Source: a virus. From it: a stretch of 30,312 nt of DNA. A program made the translations under genes and the position numbers. Where the stretch lies: IMG/VR virus record IMGVR_UViG_3300044961_000340, positions 1 to 30,312 of that record; one strand, 5' to 3'. The notes beneath the pieces are model-generated. The model searched no databases. It saw nothing but the letters and a program-made list of their open reading frames with translations, and was not told the DNA's origin. Below, one piece after another: positions 1,949 through 30,312 of this stretch. Position 1 is the first letter of the stretch; the number at the start of each line of letters is the position of its first letter.

Positions 1949-2323
1949 ATGGCCGGACAAGAGGGCGGGCAGCAAAGAAGAAGGGATAGATGGAACTGCG
2001 GACGTTGCCATGAATGCGGCACAGAACTGCTCATAGTGATGGACGGAGAGCATTGGTGCTGCACCTGCAAGACCTACCGTCGCTACCATAGCCATGGCTG
2101 GGCATATACCGCCAGCGACCCGAATAGTAACCAGTGTCCGAAATGGACATTGGCAATCAGCAAACGCAAATGGAAGCAAATAGTCAAAACGTGGGGCATA
2201 AAGCATGGCAGGCAGCGAGAGGGGAAGAAGAAGGACGATGATGGAATGAAGACAACGGCGAGTGAAAGGATTAAGGATGATGGCGGAAAGACGGATGTTG
2301 TCGGCTTCGATTGCCGAGGATGA
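1949..2323 (+). CDS. zinc-ribbon protein, 124 aa
   Basis: ATG 1949 has a strong AAAGGGAGG ribosome site. The N-terminal third holds a four-cysteine ribbon, CHEC at about residues 20-23 and CCTC at about 37-40, separated by a short hydrophobic turn. A Tyr/His-rich stretch and a Lys/Arg-rich C-terminus follow. This is the look of a small nucleic-acid-binding zinc ribbon. The last 47 bases overlap the start of the replication initiator in another frame, so the two are probably translationally coupled. The C-terminal basic tail may be partly shaped by that overlap. The exact family is not identified. Confidence 0.65.
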   Translation: MAGQEGGQQRRRDRWNCGRCHECGTELLIVMDGEHWCCTCKTYRRYHSHGWAYTASDPNSNQCPKWTLAISKRKWKQIVKTWGIKHGRQREGKKKDDDGMKTTASERIKDDGGKTDVVGFDCRG

Positions 2324-3332
2324 GGCGTTGAATCGATTGAGCATAGAAGCTCAATTGTTGTTTTTGATGACGATTCCACATTTAGACCGTGATGGTCTGA
2401 TAAGTGGTAATCCCCGTGTGTTTTTTGGCAAGGTATGTCCATTGCGGGATGAATTGCGGGATCAGATATTGAGTCTCATCAACGAATGGGTTGATCAGGG
2501 TTTGGTTATTCGGTACGAAGGGAGTAATGGGCCGGTTTTGTTTTTTAAGTCTTTTCGGCGTCATCAGATAGGTTTGGATTATGCACGTGATAAAGCAAGT
2601 CGATTTCCGCCTCCTCCAGGCTGGTTGCGGACGCCTGAGGGGTTGGTGCCTGAGGATCCATATCTGGCGGTGACGTTGGCGGAGTCGTTTGACGTTCGTT
2701 CTGGGTATCGACGGGTATTGCTGGAGCATGCGGCGGCGGGTGGTTTGTCGGTAGCTGACGAAAATCTTACAAAAACGACTTCGCGACAAGATCGCGATAA
2801 TGTCGCGACAACATCGCGAAGACTTCGCGATAATGTCGCGTCTAAGATAAAGATAGATATAAAGATATCTGATGATGATGGCCAGATAGATATTCCTCCA
2901 GCCACTGTTAATTGTGATGGGGGGGGGTGCAGGGGGGGGGATGCGAGCGAGGAAGATTTGCGAGCGTTCTGTCTGATGTTGGTGGATAAAGTGTTTGGAA
3001 CGACGTGGGATGGTGTGAAGGAGTATGTAGAGAAATTGATGTACGACGATTTGCTGAGGCTGATGGGTTGGTTGTGGAAGTGTATGGTGCGTCCGAAGTG
3101 GAGTGCGACGATCGGGGTCGGGTTTATCCGCTCGATGATGGTGAAGGGCTCGACAGCGAGTCTTACCACGGATGAGCATCAGGCGATGGTAAATGCATTG
3201 GATATGTTTGTATTGGATCCGGGTGTTGAGTTGTTTGTTGAAGAAAAAGTTGAGCGGAATGAATTATTGTGTCGATATGTTCCTGAGGAATATAGAGACA
3301 TAATTGTGTGGAAAGGGGAAGAAGAGGGATGA
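2277..3332 (+). CDS. replication initiator / phage replisome organizer-like protein
   Basis: About 351 residues. Residues 1-100 resemble the winged-helix N-terminal domain of phage replisome organizers: a helical start, a run ending in LDRDGLISGNP, and a helix-wing segment through LFFKSFRRHQ. A linker (about 165-222) is encoded by iterons, an AT-rich run and two G tracts. A C-terminal helical domain (about 225-345) contains several Trp residues. ATG 2277 is chosen because GAAAGGA lies 6 bases upstream; an in-frame GTG at 2262 is possible. Known analogues (lambda O, Gram-positive phage DnaD-like proteins) bind iterons within their own genes, and the same layout is seen here. The domain match is by eye, so the initiator role is inferred from the N-terminus together with the embedded iterons. 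It is followed by an ATGA-coupled gene and parA. Confidence 0.7.
   Translation: MMAERRMLSASIAEDEALNRLSIEAQLLFLMTIPHLDRDGLISGNPRVFFGKVCPLRDELRDQILSLINEWVDQGLVIRYEGSNGPVLFFKSFRRHQIGLDYARDKASRFPPPPGWLRTPEGLVPEDPYLAVTLAESFDVRSGYRRVLLEHAAAGGLSVADENLTKTTSRQDRDNVATTSRRLRDNVASKIKIDIKISDDDGQIDIPPATVNCDGGGCRGGDASEEDLRAFCLMLVDKVFGTTWDGVKEYVEKLMYDDLLRLMGWLWKCMVRPKWSATIGVGFIRSMMVKGSTASLTTDEHQAMVNALDMFVLDPGVELFVEEKVERNELLCRYVPEEYRDIIVWKGEEEG
2781..2900. other. putative origin of replication (11-bp phased iterons plus AT-rich element)
   Basis: TCGCGA occurs at 2781, 2792, 2803, 2814 and 2825, and TCGCGT at 2836. That is six copies with an exact 11-bp period, one turn of B-DNA. Because 11 is not a multiple of 3, the protein repeats only every 33 bp, so the periodicity is selected at DNA level. 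Immediately downstream (about 2841-2900) the sequence turns AT-rich (AAGATAAAGATAGATATAAA and on), as expected of a DNA-unwinding element. The layout copies the lambda origin inside gene O. Function is inferred. Confidence 0.65.
2919..2940. repeat. two 9-G homopolymer tracts in the initiator gene
   Basis: G runs of nine occupy 2919-2927 and 2932-2940, separated by TGCA. They encode a Gly-rich linker (DGGGCRGGD) at about residues 214-222 of the initiator. Runs of this length are slippage-prone, and any length change other than three would frameshift the initiator. They sit just beyond the iterons and AT-rich element. Confidence 0.85.
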
Positions 3333-3514: not shown

Positions 3515-4228
3515 ATGACGAAGATTATTGCAGTGGCGAATCATAAGGGCGGTAGTGGGAAAACGACAACCACCTATTATCTGGGGCTGGCGTTGGCGGC
3601 ATCAGGGCGCAACACATTGCTGATCGATTTTGACGACCAGGCGACATTAACAAACAAACTTTATAAAGCCTGGACTCCAGGGCAGACAACAATCGCTGAT
3701 GTACTGGACGGGATGGCGCTGGCGACGGCACTTTGTCAATACGATGTTGGGTTGCAGTACGTACCCGCAGACCACCGGTTGGCGTGGATTGCGGCACGGA
3801 TGCAGGCGTCCAGCCCTAACCATGCCTTCCTGCGCCGTGCCTGGCAGCGGGCCAACATGCAGCCGGAGTATGTGCTGATCGACTGCCCGCCAAGCGCCGG
3901 GGTGCTGCTGATCAATGCGCTGGCTCTGGCGGATTGGGTGCTGATCCCGGCAACGCCAACAGAGGAGAGCTATGCCGGCGTGCTGAGGATGCAAGCGATG
4001 ATTCAAGAGATCGCTTGCACGCTCAACCATCCGGTTAAACCGCTGGGCATAATGGCGACAATGGTATCGCCGTCATCAATAAGCGAGCAGAAGTATCTCA
4101 ACTTGATGGGGGAGATGGAGATAGGGAGAGTGCCTCGAAGGGTGGGGCAGACAGCAGATGCGGAACTGCGTTCGACGTATGCAGAGGTGGCCAAGACGGT
4201 AATTCGGATTCTGGAGAGTGAAAGATGA
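3515..4228 (+). CDS. parA: ParA-family partition ATPase
   Basis: A 237-residue Walker-type ParA/Soj ATPase. The deviant Walker A motif KGGSGKTT is at residues 11-18 and the Walker A' segment LLIDFDDQA at about 37-45. The Walker B-like VLIDCPPSAG lies near residue 120, followed by the ILINALALAD-type helix. It lacks the N-terminal DNA-binding extension of type Ia plasmid ParA proteins, so it resembles the short type Ib or chromosomal Soj form. The ribosome site is GGAGGAAGG before ATG 3515. The stop overlaps the start of the ParB-like gene (ATGA). Such ATPases bind nucleoid DNA and move ParB-centromere complexes so that each daughter cell inherits the plasmid. Its presence argues that this phage persists as an extrachromosomal replicon. 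Confidence 0.92.
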   Translation: MTKIIAVANHKGGSGKTTTTYYLGLALAASGRNTLLIDFDDQATLTNKLYKAWTPGQTTIADVLDGMALATALCQYDVGLQYVPADHRLAWIAARMQASSPNHAFLRRAWQRANMQPEYVLIDCPPSAGVLLINALALADWVLIPATPTEESYAGVLRMQAMIQEIACTLNHPVKPLGIMATMVSPSSISEQKYLNLMGEMEIGRVPRRVGQTADAELRSTYAEVAKTVIRILESER

Positions 4229-5946
4229 GTATGCTGAGCGGGTTGATCAATATGGAGGAGAAAACGACGTTGCTCAGTATCGATCAGATCAAAATCGATG
4301 GAGGCACACAGATGCGTGCCGAACTGCACGAGCAGACCGTCGTCGAGTATATGGAAGAGATGGCGCCGGTGGGCTGGTCGAAATTTCCGCCCGTGATCGT
4401 TTATCACGATGGCGAATCATACTGGCTGGCGGATGGATTTCATCGCGTCGAGGCATTCCGTCGTGTTACCGCCGAATTAGGACTACAGGATACCAAAATA
4501 CCCGCAGAGGTACGCGCTGGCACGCGTCGGGATGCGATTCTCTATGCAGCATCTGCCAATGCAACTCACGGTTTGCGACGAACGAACGCAGATAAACGTC
4601 GCGCAGTTGAAACATTGTTACAGGACGAAGAATGGCGACAATGGTCAGATCGTGAAATCGCACGACGTTGCCACGTAAGCCACAATTTCGTCAAAGAAGT
4701 TCGTCGCTCACTGTCATCCGATTACAGTGAGCGACGATACACAACCAAACACGGCACAACGACGATCATGAACACTGCCATGATTGGCACGTCACGTACT
4801 GCGAACATGGACGAGATTAAGGCGGCGACATGGGGCGACAAACCATATGCACAGATATGGGAAATACAGAATGCGTTGAGGCGTTGGCAACACGGCTTGA
4901 CGGCTACCGAGCTGCGTATACTGGCGAAATCCCGCACCGGTGATTGGTTTAAGTGTCAGGCTGCACTGGGCGAGATGCGTTATCGGAGTCGTGATCTGGT
5001 GCAGGCGCTGAATAATCTTGCTGATGAAATGGAGCAAGAAAGAGCAACAGAAACAGATGCACCAAACATGCCAGTGCCAGTGCAGTCGGCGGAAGGTGAC
5101 CGCTCGTTGACCGGCGCCGATCCGTGGGCGGCGGCCTGGAACTCGACACAGGCATATCAGACTGAGGAACGAGTTGACCGAGTCGCAAAGGCCATGTTGC
5201 CGTGGGTTCAAGACTGGCTGGATGACACCGGGCGCACCTGGCGGGATGTGGCGGATCACAATCCGCAATACGCCATTTCGCCATTCCGCCAGGCGATAGA
5301 AGCTGAGTGGCGTCGACGCAAACTTGATCCAATCAGCAGCGCGCTGCTGGTAAAGGTGATCCGGCGAATTTTTGAGATGATGGCGCTTGCCAATAAGCAG
5401 CAGCAGCAGGATGTCGCTGAACAATTGTTCCAGTGCATCAAGCACAGTGCGACGCTCAATAGAGAACAACAGCGGATCGTCCTTAAAGAGATGATGCTCG
5501 GCAGAGGAAAGCAATATCATCAAATGCTGGCGCCGTGGCTGAATATCGATGAAATAGAGCCAGGCGAGTTGCGCGTCGCCGCGCGGAGGGCGTACATGCG
5601 GCTGCTCGATGCGCAAATGCGATCGGCGGATATGGAAATGCCGGTTGCCGACACGCCGGCGGTGGTTGAGGAGACTCTGCTCGTCGATGCGCCGCTGACG
5701 GCGGCGGATATGGCTGTATTGAAGCCTGCGCAGCAGCCTGACACGCGCACGGCGCAGATGAGCAGGCTGATCAACATATACAGCCAGACGATTGCGACCT
5801 TTGACGAGTACAGCGCATTGACCGGCTGTTTTGTTGAGGTGCTGCCGGCAAAGCGAGAACTGGAGAAACTAATCAAGCATTTACGGCGAGAGATCAGCTT
5901 GCTCAACGGAGAGATCGTATCGGAGGAGGCATTCGCATGCTTTTGA
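4225..5946 (+). CDS. large ParB-like protein (ParB/Srx N-domain plus HTH)
   Basis: 573 residues. Residues 15-110 match the ParB/sulfiredoxin-like N-domain, with LADGFHRVEA at about 68-77 in the place of the GERR-type nucleotide motif. Residues 120-162 form a ParB-type helix-turn-helix (WSDREIARRCHVSHNFVKEV). A YTTKHGT segment, common in phage ParB-like proteins, follows, then a long variable C-terminal half with acidic and Gln-rich linkers. It is much longer than chromosomal ParB (about 280-300 residues). It is ATGA-coupled to parA, so it is the likely centromere-binding partner. Codons for residues 160-171 contain a 35-bp palindrome related to the terminal repeats. A start at Met-10 (4252) is possible. 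A role as a general phage DNA-binding regulator cannot be excluded. Confidence 0.82.
   Translation: MSMLSGLINMEEKTTLLSIDQIKIDGGTQMRAELHEQTVVEYMEEMAPVGWSKFPPVIVYHDGESYWLADGFHRVEAFRRVTAELGLQDTKIPAEVRAGTRRDAILYAASANATHGLRRTNADKRRAVETLLQDEEWRQWSDREIARRCHVSHNFVKEVRRSLSSDYSERRYTTKHGTTTIMNTAMIGTSRTANMDEIKAATWGDKPYAQIWEIQNALRRWQHGLTATELRILAKSRTGDWFKCQAALGEMRYRSRDLVQALNNLADEMEQERATETDAPNMPVPVQSAEGDRSLTGADPWAAAWNSTQAYQTEERVDRVAKAMLPWVQDWLDDTGRTWRDVADHNPQYAISPFRQAIEAEWRRRKLDPISSALLVKVIRRIFEMMALANKQQQQDVAEQLFQCIKHSATLNREQQRIVLKEMMLGRGKQYHQMLAPWLNIDEIEPGELRVAARRAYMRLLDAQMRSADMEMPVADTPAVVEETLLVDAPLTAADMAVLKPAQQPDTRTAQMSRLINIYSQTIATFDEYSALTGCFVEVLPAKRELEKLIKHLRREISLLNGEIVSEEAFACF
4702..4736. promoter_or_regulatory. 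35-bp palindrome inside parB, candidate centromere/ParB site
   Basis: Arms of 17 bp (CGTCGCTCACTGTCATC and GATTACAGTGAGCGACG) flank a central C at 4719 with one mismatch. Its core (4709-4729) and left flank match the terminal-repeat palindromes with a single base change. Palindromic sites inside parB are known for Bacillus subtilis parS in spo0J, hence the proposal. Binding is not shown. Confidence 0.6.
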
Positions 5947-10251: not shown

Positions 10252-13241
<2,990 letters not shown>

Positions 13242-13257
13242 CTTAGAGTCTCCTTGC

Positions 13258-13348
13258 AAGAAGAGAGAGGAGAGAGAAGTGAGAGGAGAGGAGAGAGAGA
13301 AGAGAGAGTCCTCTCACTCCTCACTTCTTTCTCCCTCTTCCCTCTCTC
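13258..13348. repeat. polypurine/polypyrimidine inverted tract between tail genes
   Basis: About 51 bases of almost pure A/G (13258-13308) are followed by about 40 bases of almost pure C/T (13309-13348). The halves are complementary enough to form one long imperfect hairpin, for example AGAAGTGAGAGGAG against CTCCTCACTTCT. It fills the 105-bp gap between two tail genes. A minus-strand transcript would carry it just upstream of the LamG-protein ribosome site. Confidence 0.8.
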
Positions 13349-28924: not shown

Positions 28925-29812
28925 TCATCTGGTCAGGGTCGCCAGCGCCGCATCGTACTCGCTGCGCACTGTGCTCGCCGTCGTGTGCGCATAGACGGCC
29001 GCCGTGATCGCCGGGTCGCTGTGACCCATCGCCGTGGCAACCGTCGTCAGCCGCACGCCGTTATTGAGCATCCACATCGCAAAGCCATGACGGAAGCGAT
29101 GGGGGCCGAACTTTGGCAGACCGGCCCGCTTGCACCGCCGGAAGATCATCTGGCGCACACCCTCCGGCTTCAGCACGCCGGCAACGCCGCCGTAACCATT
29201 GGACGATAGCCACAACTCCGCGCGATGTTCCGGTCGCAGGAAGAGATACGCCGTCAGCGCCGGGCGCACCTCCGGCGACATCGGCACCACGCGAGCCTTG
29301 TCGCCTTTGCCACGCCGCACCACCACCTCCAGCGACGCCACATCCAAATCGTCAACCCGGAGCGCGGCAATCTCACCCAATCGCAGCCCGCTAAAAAACA
29401 GCAACAACAGGATCAACCGATCCCGCTGACCGATCCAGTCGTCGGCGCAGGTCGCCAGCAACTGGCGCAGTTCTGATAGCGTGACATAGGGGCGCACCGT
29501 CTTCGGCACGGACGGCGCTTCCATCATCGAGATCGGATTGGCGTCACGGTCGATCTTCCGGCGCTTTTCAAGGAAGCGAAACAGCGCCTTGAGCGCACGG
29601 TAGCGAGCGTGAACAGTGGACGGCGACAGACCGGCGTCGTGGCAATCGGCGAGAAATCGCTCGATTTCCTCGACATCTGGCAGATCGCCATCCTTGCCAC
29701 GCCAGGACGCAAACGCTGCAAATTGCTCTGCGTACCACGCCAGCGTTTTGGTTGCGCGACGACGTGAACGTAAATATGTGCAGTGCAGGGAAATTGCTTC
29801 ACTGTACAACAT
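28925..29812 (-). CDS. int: tyrosine recombinase / integrase, 295 aa
   Basis: ATG 29812 is chosen because AGGAG precedes it at 6-7 bases; an earlier in-frame start lacks this. Residues 8-88 are a SAM-like core-binding domain. The catalytic domain carries Arg-144 (SGLRLGE), Lys-169 region (RRGKGDKAR), His-238xxArg-241 (HRFRHGF), His-264 (MGHSD) and the Tyr-274 nucleophile (VYAHTT), so all catalytic residues are present. It is closer in size to XerC/D-like simple integrases than to lambda Int, lacking a long arm-binding domain. It should recombine the adjacent attP with a tRNA-Gln gene. It could also resolve multimers. Confidence 0.93.
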   Translation of the reverse strand: MLYSEAISLHCTYLRSRRRATKTLAWYAEQFAAFASWRGKDGDLPDVEEIERFLADCHDAGLSPSTVHARYRALKALFRFLEKRRKIDRDANPISMMEAPSVPKTVRPYVTLSELRQLLATCADDWIGQRDRLILLLLFFSGLRLGEIAALRVDDLDVASLEVVVRRGKGDKARVVPMSPEVRPALTAYLFLRPEHRAELWLSSNGYGGVAGVLKPEGVRQMIFRRCKRAGLPKFGPHRFRHGFAMWMLNNGVRLTTVATAMGHSDPAITAAVYAHTTASTVRSEYDAALATLTR

Positions 29813-29899
29813 ATCGGACTCCTGTTGTAGTTGTAAAAGGGAAAACTTCTTACCGGCACAGGTGTCCGCACTGGTGTCATCGCAACTCCAGTGTAGCAC

Positions 29900-30025: not shown

Positions 30026-30312
30026 AGCCATTCAGCCCGATGAGGCCCAGTGAAGAGTGAAAGGTCCAGTTGAATGGCCAGGCGTAGGGTTGGACACGCA
30101 TCTGAAGTTCGTCGCTCACTGTAATCCGATTACAGTGAAAGGTCCAACCGGAGCCATTCAGCCCGATGAGGCCCAGTGAAGCACGCATCTGAAGTTCGTC
30201 GCTCACTGTAATCCGATTACAGTGAAAGGTCCAGTTGAATGGCCAGGCGTAGGGTGGGACACGCATCTGAAGTTCGTCGCTCACTGTAATCCGATTACAG
30301 TGAAAGGTCCAA
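30026..30312. repeat. terminal repeat cluster with three palindromes
   Basis: Three modules alternate here: A (ending CAGCCCGATGAGGCCCAGTG), B (GCATCTGAAGTTCGTCGC, then the palindrome and AAAGGTCC) and C (GTTGAATGGCCAGGCGTAGG). The palindromes, with arms CACTGTAATC/GATTACAGTG around one C, lie at 30117-30137, 30204-30224 and 30282-30302, 87 and 78 bp apart. Bases 30159-30261 equal 1-103. In this stretch of about 290 bp nothing codes for a protein. It may be a centromere, a transfer recognition site or a host-type dispersed repeat. Confidence 0.85.

Follow-up and report, generated by a model that had tools for sequence, protein, structure and literature searches.

A probable replication origin of six phased 11-bp iterons within the initiator gene of a metagenomic phage

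The segment from position 2781 to about 2892 of the viral metagenome record IMGVR_UViG_3300044961_000340 is very probably a phage replication origin that, as in lambda, is embedded in the gene encoding the phage's own initiator. The DNA analyzed, hereafter the window, is the whole of that record (30,312 bp) and encodes terminase, portal, head, and tail proteins, an integrase, and ParA, ParB-like, and FtsK-like proteins. The origin reading appears well supported by the anatomy of the segment and by comparison with relatives, both judged at the level of sequence. Placement of an origin inside the initiator gene, as originally predicted, draws support from an excess of phased repeats over codon shuffles, from the adjoining least stable DNA of the record, from the predicted disorder of the encoded linker, and from the periods found in homologous genes.

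The array occupies positions 2781-2841 of the plus strand and consists of six 11-bp iterons with the consensus TCGCGANNANN. Its TCGCG motifs start at 2781, 2792, 2803, 2814, 2825, and 2836, in exact steps of 11 bp, and extend to TCGCGA in the first five copies and to TCGCGT in the sixth (2836). Re-checking returned the same coordinates and spacing as those first reported for these TCGCG(A/T) copies. Each unit joins a fixed core, which is a 6-bp palindrome, to a spacer that varies. All six units agree at columns 1-5 and 9, five of the six agree at column 6, and pairwise identities in the remaining spacer columns are 0.13-0.40. A search of both strands of the whole 30,312-bp window for three phased copies (at most two mismatches) returned eight overlapping matches versus 0.04 expected; all eight fall within 2781-2841, and the array is the sole phased run of at least four copies anywhere in the window. 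It is also the one iteron cluster in the window's initiator gene, which, unlike the genes of many relatives, has no cluster near gene nt 170-200. A helical turn of DNA measures 10.5 bp and the 11-bp step is slightly longer, such that the phasing would drift slightly across the six copies. The regular 11-bp spacing first described thus stands, whereas its description as exactly one helical turn should be amended to slightly more than one turn.

A plus-strand AT-rich tract at 2843-2892 is the proposed DNA unwinding element. By nearest-neighbor energy, the 30-bp and 50-bp segments that start at 2843 are the least stable in the 30.3-kb record, which bears out the AT-rich stretch noted behind the repeats. 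The interval 2781-2900, to which the repeats had been assigned, needs dividing: its array part ends at 2841, and the remainder is the AT-rich tract. AAGATA-like repeats at 2844-2867 within this tract (TRF period 6 x 4) were considered as an equivalent of the 7- or 8-bp tandem element of relatives described below and were rejected, since 816 of 3000 synonymous shuffles reach a 6-bp period. No significant lag of 7 or 8 was detected in the window's initiator gene, and plain AT-richness seems to stand in for that element there. Two runs of nine G residues lie at 2919-2940, inside the initiator gene and directly behind the AT-rich tract. GC skew, put forward earlier as a marker of the origin, follows gene orientation and shows no turn at 2.8 kb; it is uninformative in this record and lends the origin no support.

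The plus-strand frame that contains the array (2277-3332) encodes a 351-residue RepA/DnaD-like replication initiator, identified by PHROGs, by tblastn, and by a profile of its relatives. The protein matches phrog_1408, 'replication initiation protein' (E 1.2e-6, residues 14-117), and phrog_16167 (E 3.8e-4), in agreement with the original assignment of the array to an initiator gene; weak PHROGs matches to DnaD-like helicase loaders were also obtained. In tblastn, the N-terminal third matches Paenibacillus phage DnaD-domain proteins and the replication initiation protein of Pseudomonas F10, the gene for which is followed downstream by those for a DnaC-like loader and then a DnaB-like helicase. 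A profile made from relatives alone, with the window excluded, aligns to residues 12-97 at 17.8 bits, a score that marks the window's initiator as divergent from them. At E 0.1, the protein has no match to any Pfam family (RepA_N included) or to an O-like family in PHROGs, and a single-sequence query returned no close homologues from viral and genome contigs. One near-relative contig (26,446 bp) stops short of the initiator gene and contains nothing that matches it, and the first 8 kb of the window has no DNA-level relative among GenBank phages.

In the AlphaFold model of the initiator, mean pLDDT is at least 75 in each ten-residue block up to residue 160. This model and structural matches point to an N-terminal winged-helix domain of approximately residues 1-150 (coded at 2277-2726, plus strand), which is the proposed iteron binder. 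The linker encoded by the iterons (residues 169-190) has a pLDDT of about 50 or below and is predicted to be disordered. Beyond it, helices at residues 225-240, 245-253, and 256-271 (block pLDDT about 76-83) make up a predicted C-terminal domain (residues 225-271, coded at 2949-3089, plus strand) that may contact the replisome or helicase. In structural comparisons, winged-helix domains of ORC2/Cdc6 and plasmid initiator or Rep entries were among the best matches with Z values of about 6, a level at or below which, by the aligner's own note, similarity may reflect the common fold alone. Four entries titled as initiators or Rep-DNA complexes (4pql, 4pt7, 5kbj, and 4pta), which we take to be pSK41-type Rep, reached Z 5.3-5.9, a level that unrelated winged helices attained equally. 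Foldseek against the PDB returned nothing significant (best E 0.17), the initiators being ranked only by the second aligner at modest Z, and the N-domain profile had no match up to E 1 among sequences of solved structures.

With a step of 11 bp, which is not divisible by 3, the six cores occupy all three codon phases (0, 2, 1, 0, 2, 1). Among 40,000 protein-preserving recodings of the gene, none reached the observed run of six phased cores; the longest phased run was 4 in 20,000 within-gene synonymous codon shuffles and 5 in 20,000 codon redraws from the phage's own codon usage. This result supports the earlier claim that a period out of step with the codons reflects selection at the DNA level. 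A motif-free test, which counts identical bases at a chosen lag within the best stretch of 33 positions and compares the count with synonymous shuffles, gave a consistent picture: in the window's initiator gene, lag 11 was reached by 5 of 3000 shuffles and lag 22 by 0 of 3000. Applied to lambda O as a positive control, the test picks lags 20 and 23, the annotated iteron spacing (NC_001416). The array exceeds what the protein needs and is not a by-product of the encoded protein.

The same test was extended to homologues selected by protein (first-pass pattern RIR[ST][IL]KPEx). These comprised 98 genes, namely that of the window, 23 from named phages, and 74 from a set of 80 viral contigs retrieved with an N-domain alignment; the other six contigs were dropped for a gene of less than 450 nt or the lack of the motif. 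Removal of genes with at least 75% N-domain identity left 48 representatives, the window included. A lag was scored as significant if it was reached by no more than 3 of 300 shuffles, uncorrected over 36 lags, with the empirical rate given by 41 control genes (12 from the window and 29 annotated neighbors in relatives' records). None of these 41 was significant at lag 11, none at lag 7 or 8, and two at any lag from 5 to 9. In the homologue sample, which was seeded with array-bearing proteins and that of the window and leans to array-bearing lineages, 28 of 48 divergent genes (window included) have an 11-bp period beyond codon chance. The implication of the original prediction that homologues should conserve the period along with the amino acids is therefore borne out in part: 28 of 48 retain it against protein-preserving shuffles, while 20 of 48 stay below the lag-11 threshold, versus 0 of 41 controls above it. 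Of these 28 genes, 11 have their 11-bp peak at gene nt 169-179 and 15 at 339-397; in the other two, which include the window, it falls beyond these positions. Some lineages that lack TCGCG carry other palindromic cores, for example CTCCGGAG and CTCTTGAG, and homologues with such cores also retain the 11-bp period.

A second element was common in the same genes. A significant tandem repeat of 7 or 8 bp was detected in 36 of the 48 representatives. In most of them it starts at gene nt 390-450; with the iterons in the linker, its usual start is 44-69 bp after theirs. Its unit is GGAACAGG in many actinophages and GGATCAGG-like in others, while in several proteobacterial phages it is CTGATTCC-like, which is close to the reverse complement. 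At least one significant period of 7, 8, 10, or 11 was present in 44 of 48 homologues, the four without being L204, L216, L167, and L195. The GGAACAGG-type repeat was observed after the iterons, at initiator gene nt ~390-500, in L205, L206, L208, L215, and many others. An iteron cluster at gene nt ~170-200, inside the part coding for the winged helix, was seen in L169, L186, L193, L196, and others, and in some genes it accompanies the linker cluster. Genes neighboring those of relatives include a DnaC-like loader, DnaB, SSB, and RusA. Further, one N-domain has relatives in 455 GenBank phage records.

Viral contigs were also scanned for four TCGCG motifs at 11-bp steps, which yielded at least 119 loci. 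Among the 119 listed, 63 have the array within an open reading frame hit by the N-domain profile of the initiator family, and no locus with such a frame has the array elsewhere. In 31 more of the listed loci, the array lies in other replication-initiator, primosomal, or helicase-loader families (15 assigned by scan and 16 by near-identical N-termini judged by eye), giving a total of 94 of 119 assigned to replication genes. The other 25 lack such an assignment, indicating that the TCGCG pattern by itself lacks specificity; four of them (L042, L099, L109, and L118) were scanned with no initiator match, and for the remaining 21 coverage extends to a listing of their frames. In bacterial genome contigs, the full TCGCGA pattern is much less specific than in viral contigs, with 6 of 32 loci in the initiator family, and many of the non-initiator bacterial loci resemble simple tandem repeats.

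This recurrence within initiator genes, rather than at promoters, bears on whether the array is instead an intragenic operator or copy-control site, bound by the initiator for autorepression or handcuffing, with the origin located elsewhere, such as upstream or at palindromes near the record ends. We consider this improbable. It should be noted that in iteron plasmids initiator-bound iterons often regulate copy number as well, and that the window has a separate set of repeats, a 21-bp palindrome CACTGTNATCCGATTACAGTG in five near-identical copies at 46-66, 4709-4729, 30117-30137, 30204-30224, and 30282-30302 (0.00 expected). However, the least stable DNA of the record lies directly next to the array, as in the layout of lambda ori, and the presence of the ParAB genes makes partition sites the better explanation for the palindromes.

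Very unlikely, in turn, is that the array has no function as DNA and is a protein-level repeat of 11 residues (SRxxRDNVAxx) or a tandem duplication of recent date. Across two units, the peptide indeed shows this 11-residue pattern, iteron units 2 and 5 are identical, and a 22-bp period obtains the top TRF score. Against this, six phased cores arose in 0 of 40,000 protein-preserving recodings, the cores are fixed while most spacer columns vary, the 11-bp period is kept in homologues that have other palindromic cores, and the linker in question is predicted to be disordered. Least probable of all is that the array is the centromere (parS) of the ParAB pair encoded just downstream (3515-5946), for although the parS of mycobacteriophage RedRock is described as arrays of short direct repeats with eight 8-bp repeats (PMC7157519), the array tracks the initiator gene even where the annotated neighbors (~1.5 kb on each side) include no par genes, and the five-copy 21-bp palindrome is the better candidate in the record.

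The partition genes themselves follow the initiator gene in the same direction on the plus strand, with a ParA-like gene at 3515-4228 (phrog_164, E 2e-42) and a ParB-like gene at 4225-5946 (phrog_1033, E 3e-22). The 21-bp palindromes are candidate partition (parS) sites; each copy is preceded by the same 13 bases, and one copy lies within the ParB-like gene. Four copies are at the record ends, and the record may thus be a circular genome cut there. The presence of an integrase (28925-29899) together with the ParA/ParB-like genes (3515-5946) is an unusual-looking pairing of integration and partition, and with both carried, a separate origin for prophage maintenance is possible. Elsewhere, a purine-only AG-rich repeat tract of ~47 bp (13262-13308) lies beside the start of the minus-strand gene at 12144-13259. 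No Rfam family and no tRNA were detected in the window.

Among known systems, one of the closest layouts to the origin proposed here is lambda ori, described as iterons in the middle of the O gene with an adjoining AT-rich tract (PMC7466680). The window shares with lambda ori, and with the O genes of Stx phages, both of these features mid-initiator gene, and its iterons likewise encode a predicted disordered linker. The position is also similar, in that lambda iterons start at about nt 349 of O and those of many relatives at nt ~340-400. The two differ in their repeats, four 18-bp iterons 20-24 bp apart in lambda (NC_001416 annotation) versus six units of 11 bp, each built on a 6-bp palindromic core, in the window, and the initiators show no homology, with no O-like PHROG at E 0.1. 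The parallel originally drawn, that of lambda ori with shorter and tighter repeats, is accordingly apt, with iterons and AT-rich tract in the gene and units of 11 bp versus 18 bp.

RepA_N replicons of the pSK41 type offer a second parallel. The winged-helix N-domain of pSK41 Rep binds boxes central in the rep gene, its linker is encoded by ori, and both its N- and C-domains are structurally DnaD-like (PMC5703833). In the window's initiator, the linker is likewise encoded by the putative origin, and the predicted winged-helix N-domain may resemble that of pSK41 Rep through the common fold alone. The window has six 11-bp units versus four Rep boxes, and its protein lacks a RepA_N Pfam match (E 0.1). 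A further close system comprises the RepA-like initiators of actinophages (phrog_1408, 16167, and 2149), for example those of Mycobacterium phages Butters and Bipper and Propionibacterium phage PFR2, whose N-domains are homologous to that of the window and whose genes contain 11-bp TCGCGA iterons. In these genes there is also a tandem 7/8-bp element, for instance GGAACAGG, and frequently an iteron cluster near nt 170-200, whereas the window has a single cluster and an AT-rich tract instead. Of the phrog_1408-type features, the N-domain match and the intragenic 11-bp iterons are thus present in the window and the second 7/8-bp element is absent; it should be noted that both repeats are common rather than universal in this type and that the 7/8-bp element is outside the published family definition. 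For the RepA of cluster A mycobacteriophages, the origin is reported to lie probably within repA or next to it, and no repeats are reported from the region examined there (PMC7157519). Miko RepA was considered as an experimentally supported relative and rejected, as it has no N-domain profile match and no 11-bp period; not being homologous to the window's initiator family, it provides no direct support.

A mechanism can be proposed for such an origin. The winged-helix N-domain would bind the TCGCGA cores from nearly the same side of the double helix, and binding at regular spacing may form a compact nucleoprotein array that strains and opens the adjoining AT-rich tract. The C-domain, together with a helicase loader, would then recruit the replicative helicase. 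With sites placed in linker codons, binding could dictate the DNA sequence at little cost to the protein, and the intragenic placement would couple the specificity of the initiator to its origin during exchange of phage modules.

The comparative data also suggest, tentatively and with somewhat less than an even chance of being right as a whole, a broad class of origins, with no report in the literature searched, among phages of Actinobacteria, Proteobacteria, and Firmicutes. In this class, phased iterons followed by a 7/8-mer would lie within the gene for a winged-helix/DnaD-like initiator. The iterons would have a period of 10-11 bp and lineage-specific palindromic cores, such as CTCGCGAG, CTCCGGAG, and CTCTTGAG, and within ~45-70 bp there would be a tandem 7/8-mer (GGAACAGG, GGATCAGG, or the near reverse complement CTGATTCC). 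As part of the same joint reading, the 7/8-mer may be a sequence-specific single-strand or helicase-loading element as opposed to plain AT-rich DNA, and in the window, as a variant, an AT-rich tract may take its place. A literature search, with the bulk of subscription papers and every bioRxiv preprint outside its coverage, returned no report of 11-bp iterons or TCGCGA origins for these phages. It likewise returned no layout of short phased palindromes plus a 7/8-mer, while intragenic iteron origins are known (lambda O and pSK41 RepA). The kind of origin is thus already known; its new aspects appear to be palindromic iterons that are short and tightly phased and, above all, the bipartite layout that recurs in the relatives.

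For most sequenced phages, no replication origin is known. If the proposed class is real, the origins of hundreds of phages would be readable from sequence. The pairing of iteron core and winged helix across lineages would then constitute a natural data set for rules of DNA recognition, one that would also be useful for replicons in laboratory actinomycetes, and the tandem 7/8-mer, if functional, would represent a second origin element.
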